A DNA stretch of 7,105 nucleotides from Candidatus Solincola jinzensis (GTDB taxonomy: Bacteria; Actinomycetota; Geothermincolia; Geothermincolales; RBG-13-55-18), in assembly GCA_015711875.1 (NCBI GenBank), contig JACVJG010000140.1, positions 1-7,105 of the forward strand, given 5' to 3'. Positions 1 to 5,348 of the stretch are shown in pieces; the stretch's first letter is position 1; every line of letters starts with the position of its first letter. The position numbers and the translations under genes are program-made. The notes under the pieces were generated by a model. The model did no database searches. It saw nothing but the letters and a program-made list of their open reading frames with translations, and was not told the DNA's origin.

Positions 1-60
1 GCTGACCAGGCGGGAGACCGAATGGTGCGTCTTCTCTTCGTCGATCAAAGCGAACCTCAC
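1..60 (-). CDS. IS3-family transposase OrfB, N-terminal fragment (cut by window edge)
   Basis: Reading the minus strand from GTG at 58-60 gives [20 protein letters not shown]. This is the usual opening of IS3-family OrfB, the part of the transposase that later carries the HTH_21 region and the DDE integrase core. Only 20 codons lie in the window, so none of the catalytic residues can be seen. The GTG overlaps the TGA of orfA by two bases (GTGA). OrfB may be reached by reinitiation there, or by -1 slippage on the A-rich CGAAAG just upstream to make an OrfAB fusion. The second mode is the family norm, but this site is a poor slippery sequence. Confidence 0.75.
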
Positions 61-350
61 TTTCGCTGACCCGTCTCCCGGGCGAAGAAAAGCGCTGCCT
101 TTCGGAGGATCTCTTTCTCCTCCTTGAGGATTCTACACTCCCGGCGCAGGCGGTTGAGCTCCTCCCGCTCCTCTGAGGTGAGCCCTTCCGCCTTGCCCTC
201 GTCGATGTCCGCCTGGCGCACCCAGCGGGCGAGGGTCCAGTCGGAGACTCCGATCTCCCGTGCCGTCTCGGCGAGGGTCCTTCCGCCCATGCGGTAGAGC
301 CTCACCGCCTCCGCCCTGAACTCCGGTGGAAAGGGTTTCCCTTGTGCCAT
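57..350 (-). CDS. IS3-family transposase OrfA (HTH_Tnp_1)
   Basis: This 97-residue protein begins [20 protein letters not shown] and matches the IS3/IS911 OrfA pattern. A helix-turn-helix lies at about residues 25-46 ([17 protein letters not shown]). A charged linker follows, then a leucine-zipper-like helix at about 62-88 ([18 protein letters not shown]) that in this family mediates multimerisation with OrfAB. It binds the terminal inverted repeats. The ATG at 348-350 is chosen over one 36 bp upstream because AAGGAG precedes it by five bases. The predicted protein is full length for the family, so this half of the element looks intact. Confidence 0.9.
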
Positions 351-390
351 GCTCACTCCTTTCTCGAGGGACCCATTATCCCTCAATCCA

Positions 391-2421: not shown

Positions 2422-2677
2422 GCATTGAAGCCTTCCATTCGCTAGGCACTCGATGCGCTGAATTTTTCACCGGGATTATTGCTTCCCTTATCGCTTGATT
2501 CGCTAGCCCGATAAAAGAATCCAGGCATGAGGAAATGCCATTATTTAGCAGTTGAGGGGGCGATCAATCACATAAAGTGTGGGAGTGGGGATATCCGCCG
2601 GCTCCCTTCCACCTTCAGGCCTCCGGGCCTGGCCGAGCCCTTCGTCGGCCCTTCCGGCTTCCAGGGGTTGGATTGGG
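2422..2677. other. Intergenic stretch without a recognisable gene
   Basis: No ORF here has a good start site or protein-like composition. The only structure seen is a 6-bp GC stem with a four-base loop, CAGGCC (2616-2621) against GGCCTG (2626-2631). It lies 3' of the tRNA on the minus strand. No T-run follows on either strand, so it is not called a terminator. Confidence 0.5.
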
Positions 2678-2750
2678 TGCCCCCGGCGGGATTCGAACCC
2701 GCGACCTCCCCTGCGCCAGAGGGGTGCTCTATCCGCTGAGCTACGGGGGC
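2678..2750 (-). tRNA. tRNA with GGC anticodon (nominal tRNA-Ala; isotype doubtful)
   Basis: The 73-base cloverleaf is complete. It has a 7-bp acceptor stem GCCCCCG/CGGGGGC, T8-A9, D stem GCTC/GAGC with loop AGCGGATA, anticodon stem CCCCT/AGGGG with loop CTGGCGC (T33, anticodon GGC at 34-36), a 5-base variable loop AGGTC, T stem GCGGG/CCCGC with loop TTCGAAT, and discriminator A73. CCA is not encoded; CCC follows A73. GGC reads GCC/GCU, alanine codons. However, position 3:70 is C:G rather than the G:U pair that bacterial AlaRS requires. A20, the A73 discriminator and the general body are more like an arginine tRNA. G37 is also unusual for alanine. The gene call is firm; its charging identity is not. 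Confidence 0.85.
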
Positions 2751-2783
2751 TCCCCACTCCGAATCTCGGGTTTCCCCGAAACA

Positions 2784-2811
2784 TGTATATCTTATAATCT
2801 ATGTATGACAA
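2784..2811 (-). promoter_or_regulatory. Probable promoter of the tRNA gene
   Basis: On the minus strand TTGTCA (2811-2806) is followed after 16 bp by TATACA (2789-2784), a reasonable sigma-70-type pair. It would start transcription near 2777 and leave a leader of about 27 bases before the tRNA 5' end at 2750. Its -35 overlaps the -35 of the divergent plus-strand promoter. Confidence 0.5.
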
Positions 2812-2834
2812 TTAGGATGCTGGCGTGATATAAT
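2805..2834 (+). promoter_or_regulatory. Extended -10 promoter directed at the tRNA-half copy
   Basis: ATGACA (2805-2810) lies 18 bp before a perfect TATAAT (2829-2834), and TGA at 2826-2828 gives the extended -10 TGN motif. Transcription would begin near 2841, at the start of the partial tRNA copy. The next substantial plus-strand gene (3135) lies beyond a terminator-like hairpin, so the promoter seems to serve a short RNA. Confidence 0.5.
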
Positions 2835-2838
2835 AGAA

Positions 2839-2897
2839 CTGCGCCAGAGGGGTGCTCTGAAAAGAGCTACGGGAGAGGCGGGAGACCGCCTCTTTCC
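2839..2897 (+). ncRNA. Candidate short RNA antisense to the tRNA 5' half
   Basis: Bases 2839-2858 are identical, over 20 nt, to 2711-2730 of the tRNA locus. Bases 2864-2873 repeat 2738-2747. On the minus strand this is a copy of tRNA positions 4-13 and 21-40 with the D-loop replaced by five bases. Read on the plus strand from the promoter at 2805-2834, the RNA would be complementary to the anticodon arm, D stem and part of the acceptor stem of the tRNA. It would end at the hairpin at 2874-2893, giving roughly 55 bases. The changed D-loop makes a neat GCTCT-GAAA-AGAGC hairpin (2854-2867) with a GNRA loop. The alternative is a non-transcribed tRNA pseudogene or duplication scar. Sequence alone cannot decide between them. 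Confidence 0.45.
2874..2897 (+). terminator. Intrinsic-terminator-like hairpin
   Basis: AGAGGCGG (2874-2881) pairs perfectly with CCGCCTCT (2886-2893) around a GAGA loop, followed by TTCCTTAT. The T-tract is interrupted but adequate. The only nearby plus-strand unit it could end is the short antisense RNA starting near 2841. Confidence 0.55.
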
Positions 2898-3134: not shown

Positions 3135-3776
3135 ATGAGATTTGAAAGAATCCAGGAAATTGTGGGCGACGAGCCCTTGTTCGAGACCGGGCTCCTCCTG
3201 GCGGGGGACGTCGACCCCGCGAGCGTGCGGCGCCAGTTGTCGCGCCTGGTCGCCTCCGGCCGCATACTCCAGCTCCGCCGCGGCCTCTACGCTCTCGCGC
3301 CGCCCTTCCAGAAAGTGAGGCCCCACCCCTTCCTGGTCGCAAACCACATCGTGCGGCCCTCCTACGTCAGCCTGCAGTCGGCTCTCGCCTATTACGGGCT
3401 CATCCCGGAGCATGTGCCCATGGTCACCAGCGTCACCACCTCGCGCCCGGGGCGACGCGATACCCCCCTCGGCGCTTTTGCATACCGCCACATAAACCAG
3501 GATCTGTTCTCAGGTTATCGCCTTGAGGATTTAAGAGGAGGCCAGAACGCCATGGTGGCCGCCCCCGAAAAGGCGTTGCTCGACCTGCTTTACCTCGCGC
3601 CCCGATCGGACCGACGGGGTTATCTCAGGGAGCTGCGGCTTCAGAACCTGGATTCCTTGAACCTGGAGGAGCTCGCGCGCCTTGCCGAAGCCGCCGGCAG
3701 CCCCAAACTGCGCAGGGCGGTCGCTAACGTGAGTAAGCTTGCGCGCATGGAAGCCGAGGAGTACGAGGCGCTGTGA
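3135..3776 (+). CDS. AbiEi-family antitoxin / transcriptional repressor
   Basis: This 213-residue protein has the AbiEi layout. An N-terminal winged helix-turn-helix covers about residues 1-53 (VRRQLSRLVASGRILQLRRGLYAL at 31-54). The antitoxin domain follows, with the family stretch SYVSLQSALAYYGLIPE (76-92), TSVTTSRPGR (98-107) and APEKALLDLLYL (143-154). In characterised AbiE systems this protein binds promoter inverted repeats and neutralises the AbiEii nucleotidyltransferase, a type IV toxin-antitoxin arrangement used in abortive phage infection. Length fits the family. The ATG at 3135 has no ribosome-binding site, which fits a leaderless start. Its stop overlaps the GTG of the toxin gene (GTGA), so the two are translationally coupled. 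Confidence 0.88.
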   Translation: MRFERIQEIVGDEPLFETGLLLAGDVDPASVRRQLSRLVASGRILQLRRGLYALAPPFQKVRPHPFLVANHIVRPSYVSLQSALAYYGLIPEHVPMVTSVTTSRPGRRDTPLGAFAYRHINQDLFSGYRLEDLRGGQNAMVAAPEKALLDLLYLAPRSDRRGYLRELRLQNLDSLNLEELARLAEAAGSPKLRRAVANVSKLARMEAEEYEAL

Positions 3777-4594
3777 AGGAATACCGGTCCGGGCTCGCGC
3801 GAGCCGCGGCGTCGCCGCTTCAAGCCCGCAACGACGTGAGGGAATACCTCCAGGCGCGCATCCTGGGCGTCCTGCAAAGGCAGGGAGCCATGGTTCCGCT
3901 CGCCTTCCATGGGGGAACCGCGTTGCGGTTTCTCTACGCTACCGCCCGCTACTCGGAGGATCTCGATTTCTCGCTTGCGGGGAGAAGGGAGGGCTACGAC
4001 CTCCGGTCCTGGCTCAAAGCGGTCCACCGGGAGTTGTCCCTCGAGGGTTACGAGGTGCTGATGAAGGTAAACGACAAGAAGACCGTACACAGCGCTTTCG
4101 TCCGCTTCCCTGGACTTTACCACGACATCGGGCTTTCCTCCCATCGCCGGGAGACCTTATCCGTCAAGCTGGAGGTGGACACGAACCCCCCGCGGGGAGC
4201 CGTCCTCGAGACCACCGTGGTGCGCCGCCACGTCCTCCTGCAGCTTCAACATCACGACAGGGCGACCCTGCTGGCGGGAAAACTGCACGCCGTGCTCATG
4301 AGGCCTTATCTTAAGGGGCGCGATCTTTACGACCTCTGCTGGTATCTCGGGGACCCTGAATGGCCGGAGCCCAACCTGGTCTATCTCAACAATGCCTTGC
4401 GCCAGACGGGCTGGGACGGCCGTCCCTTGACTTCGAGAAACTGGCGCAGGGCGGTTCGCGACAGACTTGAGGAGGTCGCGTGGGAAGAGGCGGTGGAAGA
4501 CGTCAGGCCTTTCCTGGGGCCGGGCGCCGACCCCTCCATCCTGGACAAGAAGAACCTCTTCCGCTTGCTCAACCAGGCGGAAAAGCGAGGGTAA
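3773..4594 (+). CDS. AbiEii/MenT-family nucleotidyltransferase toxin
   Basis: This 273-residue protein carries the motifs of the AbiEii (DUF1814) nucleotidyltransferase fold. They are HGGTALRFLY (46-55), the metal-binding SEDLDF with Asp63 and Asp65, KLEVDTNPP with Asp136 as probable third acidic residue, and AGKLHAVLMRPYLKGRDLYDL (168-188) with Lys170, Arg183, Asp184 and Asp187. All expected catalytic positions are present, so it looks active. Characterised relatives transfer nucleotides; the mycobacterial MenT3 homologue adds pyrimidines to tRNA 3' ends and blocks charging. The substrate of this protein is unknown. The GTG start overlaps the AbiEi stop by two bases with no strong ribosome-binding site, so translation depends on the antitoxin gene. 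The tRNA locus about 1 kb upstream may be relevant. Confidence 0.9.
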   Translation: MKEYRSGLARAAASPLQARNDVREYLQARILGVLQRQGAMVPLAFHGGTALRFLYATARYSEDLDFSLAGRREGYDLRSWLKAVHRELSLEGYEVLMKVNDKKTVHSAFVRFPGLYHDIGLSSHRRETLSVKLEVDTNPPRGAVLETTVVRRHVLLQLQHHDRATLLAGKLHAVLMRPYLKGRDLYDLCWYLGDPEWPEPNLVYLNNALRQTGWDGRPLTSRNWRRAVRDRLEEVAWEEAVEDVRPFLGPGADPSILDKKNLFRLLNQAEKRG

Positions 4595-4847: not shown

Positions 4848-4856
4848 AACGTTCTC

Positions 4857-5050
4857 AGGCACGGGGGTCAGGCCTCGCCCGGTGCCTCAGGCACGGGGGT
4901 CAGGCCTCGCTTAGTGCCCGGGAGGACGGTTGGAAAACCGGGTATAAGGCCTGGATCAGGCTTTGCTCGGTGCCCGAAGGTCCGGCACAGAAGCCACAGG
5001 CACGGGGAGCAGGCCTCGCCCGGTGCCCGGGAGGAAGGTTGGAAGGCGGG
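4857..5050. repeat. Cluster of REP-like hairpin repeats
   Basis: Three good 31-bp units lie at 4857-4887, 4889-4919 and 4998-5028, with a decayed unit at about 4947-4975. Each has core CACGGGG(G/A)(T/G)CAGGCCTCG between arms GGCAC and GTGCC, so each can fold. The first two are head-to-tail with a 32-bp period. The second and last are also followed by related tails, CGGGAGGACGGTTGG and CGGGAGGAAGGTTGG, so a longer composite unit of about 53 bp was duplicated. Compared with 2340-2370, the arms changed from GGCAC/GTGCC to GACAC/ATGTC, with one base pair (G:C to A:T) changed on both sides. This is the typical look of REP/BIME-type elements. No REP-associated transposase gene is in the window. Confidence 0.8.
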
Positions 5051-5348
5051 CTTCATATCCCGGTGCGCGAAAAGCCCGCAAAGGGGATAGCCAGGCAGGC
5101 GAGCGCCACATGAAGCTCAAGTGGAAAGAGGACTTCTCGCCGGCGGGCCCGGACAAGTACTCGTAGAGCCGGGGCAGGGAGAAGAAAGAGGTCCTGAGAG
5201 GTCAAGAGAAGGTAACATCTACCATCCATAACGGAATTCGCCGTCGTGGAAATGCGGTCTTTTGGATTATGACTGGAGAACATGCCAGGCTGCTTAAAAA
5301 GATGCCTGGCCGCTTCCCGGTGAGCGAGCCGGGCTTTGCGGGCAAGCA
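5051..5348. other. Upstream region of hsp20 without a supported gene
   Basis: No gene with credible start and composition is visible. A 17-codon frame from ATG 5110 has no support. GCCAGGC (5284-5290) and GCCTGGC (5304-5310) form a perfect 7-bp inverted repeat with a 13-base A-rich spacer, and CCCGG (5316-5320)/CCGGG (5329-5333) a smaller one. Both are in the likely leader or promoter region of hsp20. No CIRCE or HAIR heat-shock operator and no clear -35/-10 pair was found. Confidence 0.4.

Follow-up and report, generated by a model that had tools for sequence, protein, structure and literature searches.

In type I toxin-antitoxin systems an antisense RNA acts against the mRNA of a toxin, and in the plasmid ColE1 the antisense RNAs RNAI/RNAII set copy number by controlling the replication primer. 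The locus described here resembles the former in that the antisense RNA gene adjoins its target and the latter in that the specificity of loop and stem diverges between systems; unlike both, its target is a tRNA rather than a small-peptide mRNA or a replication primer. Two RNAs also make up CreTA (type VIII), in which, according to the portions of the two reports used here, CreT acts through a tiny ORF to sequester a rare tRNA and CreA directs Cascade to the promoter of creT (PMC8501985, PMC12737573). Judged by the same portions, our locus would share with CreTA and type VIII systems the two RNAs, here predicted, in a small locus and a likely attack on translation via tRNA, and differs in having a tRNA as the candidate toxin and a plain antisense RNA as its partner (PMC8501985, PMC12737573). 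CreTA is also marked by one or more CRISPR-like repeats within the antitoxin gene and by a type I CRISPR-Cas locus close by. In the window, as we call the whole 7,105-nt stretch of DNA analysed, none of the 20 largest of 52 repeat families is a CRISPR-like array, and the 9 proteins scanned contain no cas domain.

Mistranslating tRNAs likewise join the body of one identity to the anticodon of another and can be toxic; in the partial accounts that we drew on these are variants or engineered molecules, unlike the conserved cassette with its own antisense RNA found here. Integrative elements also place a partial tRNA copy near a tRNA gene (PMC9897764, in the part used here), but the promoter, terminator and covariation described below would be unexpected of such fragments. 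Among the titles and abstract openings of open-access papers (preprints and subscription papers lie outside this set) we found no antisense RNA gene dedicated to a bacterial tRNA.

A tRNA gene faced by a partial antisense copy

The only tRNA of the window lies on the minus strand at 2676-2750, carries the call Ala(GGC) and scores 70.5 bits against the tRNA model. About 90 bp from its 5' end, on the opposite strand, lies a predicted antisense unit (Table 1). A sequence-only reading had described there a TATAAT with a TGN extension, 20-nt and 10-nt exact matches antisense to the tRNA, a GAAA-loop hairpin replacing the D-loop and, after the complement, a hairpin with a T-rich tail. All of these were recovered: the promoter element and the matches from the sequence and a repeat search (20/20 identity between 2839-2858 and 2711-2730), the replaced D-loop from sequence and fold (GAAAA at 2859-2863 stands where a copy of the tRNA would have ATCCGCT), and the final hairpin from the fold.

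Table 1. Features of the tRNA-antisense locus, in positions of the window
Feature	Positions	Strand	Basis or remark
Antisense RNA promoter: -35 ATGACA, 18, extended -10 TGATATAAT (2826-2834)	2805..2834	+	promoter scan
Predicted antisense (anti-tRNA) RNA, ~55 nt, predicted start G2841	2841..2895	+	six bases past TATAAT
20 nt complementary to the tRNA anticodon loop, the 5' strand of its anticodon stem and the 3' strand of its D-stem	2839..2858	+	identical to 2711-2730
GCUCU-GAAA-AGAGC hairpin replacing the D-loop complement	2854..2867	+	fold
10-nt complement of the tRNA 5' D-stem and inner acceptor stem, GAGCTACGGG	2864..2873	+	identity read from sequence
Terminator-like hairpin and short U tract	2874..2895	+	fold; hairpin proper 2874-2893, T-rich tail
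Target tRNA, anticodon GGC, loop CUGGCGC, A20, C3:G70, A73, CCA not encoded	2678..2750	-	tRNA call, Rfam, sequence
tRNA leader GGAGUGGGGA, complementary to the trailer end	2751..2760	-	sequence; paired in fold of 2577-2785
Conserved 3' trailer; 2582-2591 pairs with the leader	2579..2677	-	alignment of six copies
Putative tRNA promoter region and start of leader hairpin; boxes uncertain	2779..2811	-	alignment

The antisense promoter (ATGACA-18-TATAAT with its TG) scores 11/12. Between 2500 and 3200 there are two promoter-like sites in all, this one included, where shuffled sequences average 0.3. When the antisense strand of 2837-2900 was folded, z was -3.11, and 2 of 200 shuffles were equally stable. 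The hairpin at 2874-2893 is missing from the list of the window's terminator scan because its T tract falls short of the scan rule. In the window the copy has a promoter and a terminator-like hairpin of its own in the antisense direction; in the relatives the same was read by eye only. As predicted from sequence, both RNAs would be non-coding, as in type VIII systems: one matches the tRNA model, and the ~55-nt unit contains no Rfam match (the Rfam matches fall on the tRNA). As a further observation on the tRNA gene, the 10-bp perfect complement between 2582-2591 and 2751-2760 is kept in four cassettes and is reminiscent of rRNA processing stems; such leader-trailer pairing suggests that maturation of the tRNA might be regulated.

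The locus is a ~320-bp cassette in related genomes

The Lon encoded next to the locus in the window is 98% identical to that of the Actinomycetota MAG Ch49 (L001) and 89% identical to that of Candidatus Solincola quzhuomuensis (class Candidatus Geothermincolia). Strong matches to the tRNA-antisense locus were found in three of the 12 genomes of Lon relatives (G005, G001 and G003), all Actinomycetota MAGs that are probably Geothermincolia, and gave, with the window, four cassettes to compare (window, L081, L082 and L083). On alignment the cassette is a discrete block of ~320 bp, from the trailer end (2579) to the antisense terminator (2895). The flanks of the related cassettes have no DNA match to the window in 1-1.5 kb on either side, and the neighbours scanned are unrelated: G003 has an acyl-CoA dehydrogenase and an FAD enzyme there, G005 an IF-2B family protein and a ribosomal S30AE protein, and G001 a PD40 protein. 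Lon/Hsp20 synteny was set aside as a guide, the ten closest relatives aligning from the Hsp20 region or Lon onward and not at the tRNA locus. BLAST matches to the trailer occur in 4 of 26 genomes, and the 2779-2811 region is conserved in the window, L081 and L082 and diverged in L083.

All four cassettes carry an extended -10 (TGN-TAWAAT), a six-base gap, a start G at identical spacing from the -10, and the hairpin. The -10 and the hairpin were judged by eye from the aligned copies. For L081-L083 neither a promoter nor a terminator at the antisense hairpins is listed by the consensus scanner, because the -35 elements and T tracts miss its thresholds (it also lists no promoter in the viral contig L177, described below). 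The GCUCU-GAAA-AGAGC hairpin is full in the window, L081 and L083 and shortened in L082, which has also lost the equivalent of the 10-nt complement at 2864-2873. In the terminator-like hairpin one G-C pair has become A-U in L081 and L083, with both sides changed.

These signals also bear on the direction of the unit. Read on its minus strand, the copy corresponds to a 5' tRNA half, and it could in principle be a sense-direction mimic that titrates a tRNA-binding protein; the extended -10 and the U tract point the other way in 4/4 cassettes, however, and the fold of that strand has z = -1.66 against -3.11 for the antisense strand, and we consider such a mimic highly improbable.

We surveyed 245 distinct tRNAs (ARAGORN plus script) of the loci examined for the best ungapped copy of tRNA positions 21-38 within 700 bp and outside tRNA genes. 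Four of them, those of the window, L081, L083 and L177, reached 17/18 or 18/18, and the other 241 scored 9-15/18. All four belong to this one family, and the antisense copy is not a chance match. The family member L082 scores 15, as do two unrelated tRNAs, and was accepted because of synteny and not because of this score.

The cassette is rare and patchy in the genomes scanned. An arginine-like body with a UGGCG loop was found by exact pattern in 4 of 396 genomes of the phylum, one of them a wreck (G014). The scan behind this count matched 27 genomes, of which 20 were judged in context (G003 among them), three were already known (G001, G005 and G014) and four (G033, G056, G072 and G112) were judged from the matched string alone. 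Other patterns matched none of 325 genomes of the class of G053; in the phylum of L023's genome the one match among 400 is an ordinary tRNA-Ala with a best copy of 12/18, and at the one match in 50 mixed genomes ARAGORN finds no tRNA. These patterns are exact, and diverged members would be missed.

The G014 locus (L111) has a full-length tRNA with an 8-nt loop and two broken acceptor pairs and, with a best copy of 12/18, no antisense unit. That the tRNA is broken where the antisense RNA is absent hints that a cell does not tolerate it by itself. A second copy in G001 (L093), truncated to the tRNA 3' half and trailer and lying ~5 kb from L082, is uninformative on this point because one truncation removes both genes; the tRNA of L083 has two C-A mismatches, in its acceptor and anticodon stems, despite a kept antisense unit. 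As a side observation, G001 contig C82 (L138) holds direct copies of the tRNA 3' half and trailer at 160-296 and 5078-5314, ~5 kb apart, of which the first is truncated; they could be the flanks of an inserted segment or an assembly effect.

A tRNA-antisense pair on a phage contig

Pattern scans of viral contigs returned 0, 48, 1, 75, 5, 13 and 6 loci, which were screened by script for anticodon-arm copies. A tRNA-antisense pair was found in L177 and, tentatively, in L186. The former is a viral contig of 48 kb whose record also contains SSB, DnaB and terminase domains. Its arginine-like tRNA, with the loop CUGGCGA, is convergent with a 17-nt exact copy of the anticodon and part of the D-stem; the D-loop is again absent from the copy, and a strong hairpin follows. 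L186 is a prophage record in which a GGC tRNA without G3:U70 adjoins a phage integrase. On the same strand this tRNA is followed by TTGACT-18-TAGACT, by 13 nt complementary to its anticodon loop and stem, by a D-arm complement that sits in a predicted hairpin loop, and by a terminator. We treat L186 as only tentative, since its match of 13/18 lies inside the background and the integrase makes a tRNA remnant possible. A search of viral contigs for relatives of its integrase returned only L186 itself.

Other candidates from these scans were discarded: L213, from a pattern for the D-hairpin, is a chance match within an ORF of a viral contig; L314, L315 and L316 are ordinary tRNA-Ala genes with no copy; and L184 is a tRNA-like match with a long insert and no copy. 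By BLAST, the window tRNA matched 455 phage records (best 40 considered) and 62 plasmid records (best 20), with one phage and one plasmid record of the 99% band outside the matches listed. Of eight matches inspected, four have a tRNA called Arg and two have one called Thr; L317 and L324 gave no clean call.

The scans also turned up unusual tRNA-like sequences of other kinds. In the viral contigs L182, L200 and L208, tRNA-like 5' parts run into CTGGCGAAAGCYG past the D-arm, and a normal 3' half was not evident in the stretch viewed. Perhaps these are interrupted phage tRNA genes; Rfam at its gathering threshold gave no intron in the three. At L301:1609-1688 there is an 80-nt tRNA-like gene called Pro(TGG), with TGTGGCGAAAGC in the anticodon arm and 51.5 bits to the tRNA model.

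The copy covaries with its tRNA

To characterize the match between the two genes, we compared tRNA and copy across five pairs (four cassettes and L177). Intermolecular covariation is seen at eight tRNA positions (26-32 and 38), each with at least two different Watson-Crick pairs among the five. On the contrary side there are two mismatches and one G-U within 26-32 (A-A and U-G in L082; C-A in L083), and further mismatches at positions 21 (L082), 38 and 39 (L177) and 41 (L083). When all ways of assigning copies to tRNAs were ranked by summed pairing, the true partners alone came first in each comparison: among 24 assignments for the four cassettes, among 120 once L177 was added and among 720 with L186 as well. 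Complementarity kept by compensatory change, as expected of an antisense regulator, is what the five pairs display (best of 120), although covariation of this kind would fit compensatory mutation and gene conversion between tRNA and copy alike; the match is maintained either way.

By predicted RNAduplex energy the cognate tRNA was the best partner for five of the six antisense RNAs, the exception being L186. By cofold gain it was best for only four of six: L186 failed, as did the window antisense RNA, which did better with the L083 tRNA (-21.8) than with its own (-18.9).

Covariation and the conserved signals together decide against the view that the copy is an integration scar. Fragments of tRNAs from integrated elements do occur and mislead annotation (PMC9897764, in the part drawn on), and a truncated 3' half (L093) lies ~5 kb from L082 in G001; on this view the copy would be an attachment-site remnant or a displaced half, with an accidental promoter and hairpin. 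Yet the D-loop complement is absent in all five firm copies, the extended -10, the start spacing and the hairpin are present in 4/4 cassettes, the copy tracks its tRNA, and the layout in L177 is another one. This is not the picture of a locus free of selection, and we rejected the scar, to which we give next to no weight.

The changes in the tRNA are concentrated in the anticodon stem. When the four cassette tRNAs are compared in pairs, this stem differs at 27/60 sites (5' strand 12/30, 3' strand 15/30), the T-arm at 0/102, the D-stem at 0/48, the acceptor strands at 7/42 and 3/42 and the D-loop at 9/48. The loop core U33-G34-G35-C36-G37 is invariant in the four cassettes and also in L177, L186 and the relic L111. 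With a fixed anticodon triplet and a varying stem, the specificity of each pair would be carried by the stem.

A constant loop over a variable stem also bears on possible roles in phage or mobile-element warfare, in which the antisense RNA or a decoy tRNA would counter an anticodon nuclease or a rival's tRNA and stem variation would be escape. The pair on the phage contig L177, and perhaps that beside the integrase in prophage L186, would suit such a role, and phage tRNAs have been proposed, in the portion of the report used here, to evade anticodon nucleases via loop mutations (PMC10264068). Here, however, it is the stem that varies around an unchanging UGGCG core, the reverse of what escape through the loop would give, and the neighbour genes scanned, few as they are, share nothing. 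We regard warfare as a distinctly unlikely explanation.

We favor silencing of the tRNA. The minus strand would give the GGC tRNA and the plus strand an antisense RNA of ~55 nt, running from the anticodon loop through the anticodon stem and D-stem. Its predicted first nucleotides face the anticodon loop, on which the 5' end would seed; pairing would then open the anticodon arm and D-arm and remove the tRNA from translation. The sequence-only reading had suggested that a small RNA pairs with or titrates the tRNA or its 5'-half fragment, to be checked by covariation of the complement with the tRNAs of relatives and to be abandoned if relatives kept the tRNA half without the TATAAT and the hairpin; in L081, L082 and L083 the complement covaries and both signals are kept, which supports the proposal. 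Judged from these comparisons, it is very probable that the antisense RNA silences the cassette tRNA, through transcription and in-cell pairing as predicted.

An alanine anticodon on an arginine-like tRNA body

AlaRS recognises its tRNA by G3:U70. The cassette tRNA does not have this pair of the ordinary tRNA-Ala(GGC): C3:G70 is found in the tRNAs of the window, L081, L082, L083 and L177, and G3:C70 in that of L186. In E. coli, A20 is a mark of tRNA-Arg, and ArgRS needs C35. A20 (in our numbering of the D-loop) is present in the cassette tRNAs and in those of L177 and L186, and the cassette anticodon is without C35. When 98 genomes were searched by BLAST, the loci ranked next after the cassette loci and the G014 relic (L112-L137) gave, in 24 of 26 cases, the call Arg(CCG) or Arg(CCU) for the tRNA that was matched. 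Overall identity is about equal, with 49-55 of 73-74 positions shared with the tRNA-Arg(CCU) of the clade and 50-53 with its tRNA-Ala(GGC), and appears undecisive between the two; the body looks arginine-like on the basis of the BLAST ranking, A20 and the absent G3:U70. With G37 invariant, the loop also holds an arginine anticodon, GCG, shifted by one base, and charging by ArgRS or four-base decoding would be possible.

A separate ordinary tRNA-Ala(GGC) exists in all four relatives with a cassette or relic (G001, G003, G005 and G014); its G3:U70 is present in G005 and readable too in G001, G003 and G014. With an ordinary tRNA in the same genomes, the cassette tRNA would be spare. In five window ORFs, 54 of the 104 codons for alanine are GCC or GCU, which means that many sites would be struck by a misloaded GGC tRNA.

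The main rival explanation is that the tRNA is a useful, non-toxic extra GGC tRNA, kept by cell or phage for some condition and serving stress decoding or a reaction outside translation, and that the antisense RNA tunes it. All of the pairing and conservation evidence fits this equally well, and the 70.5-bit score and the leader-trailer pairing in the predicted fold look as if maturation matters. Against it stand the spare anticodon on a non-alanine body alongside an ordinary tRNA-Ala(GGC), the patchy occurrence (those 4 of 396 phylum genomes by exact pattern, one a wreck) and the fast change of the anticodon stem, which to our knowledge is unusual for a useful decoder. On balance we find a useful tRNA rather unlikely.

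A possible RNA-only toxin-antitoxin system

Why should a cell keep a tRNA merely to silence it? Toxin-antitoxin logic seems to us the best answer, and it is from this that we infer a toxin. Hints in this direction are the mismatch of anticodon and body and the broken tRNA of L111, where the antisense RNA is missing. Free GGC tRNA, misloaded or unloaded, would be harmful because GCC/GCU codons would receive an incorrect amino acid or none at all, and the antisense RNA would be its antitoxin; the diverging anticodon stems would keep cassettes from neutralising each other. That the tRNA is toxic and the antisense RNA its antitoxin is a possibility that we rate slightly short of even, and the explanation taken whole, a two-gene, RNA-only cassette with both silencing and toxin-antitoxin function, stands for us in the balance. 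More tentative is the general form of the idea, namely that Geothermincolia-like bacteria and phages share an RNA-only toxin-antitoxin system whose toxin is a complete, identity-swapped tRNA (an arginine-type body with an alanine anticodon in the constant UGGCG core), whose antitoxin is the antisense RNA and whose anticodon stem, able to change through compensation, is a code by which each cassette is immune to itself alone; this we would sooner doubt than assert.

If the tRNA is toxic, the cassette would represent a toxin-antitoxin system with a code-misreading tRNA as its toxin, and the anticodon stem would hold the specificity code. If it is harmless, the cassette would still be a natural candidate for control of a single tRNA by base pairing, carried out by a simple pair of short RNAs.

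Neighbourhood of the cassette in the window

An AbiEi/AbiEii type IV toxin-antitoxin pair lies at 3135-4594 on the plus strand, 240 bp from the antisense gene. It has no match in the examined flanks of the other cassettes, and the scanned neighbours in L138-L141 are other genes; as a cassette partner it was treated as incidental. A dispersed repeat around CAGRCACGGGGGTCAGGCCTCG forms two clusters, at 2320-2421 and 4851-5029, and looks REP-like by eye. Finally, a partial AAA/SMC-like ATPase is encoded at 326-1525 on the plus strand, with LmuB and DndD as best PADLOC matches, to the C-terminal part of the models. A gene with a transposase-type HTH (57-386, minus strand) adjoins it, and the ATPase probably belongs to a defence system whose gene was cut short close to an insertion element.
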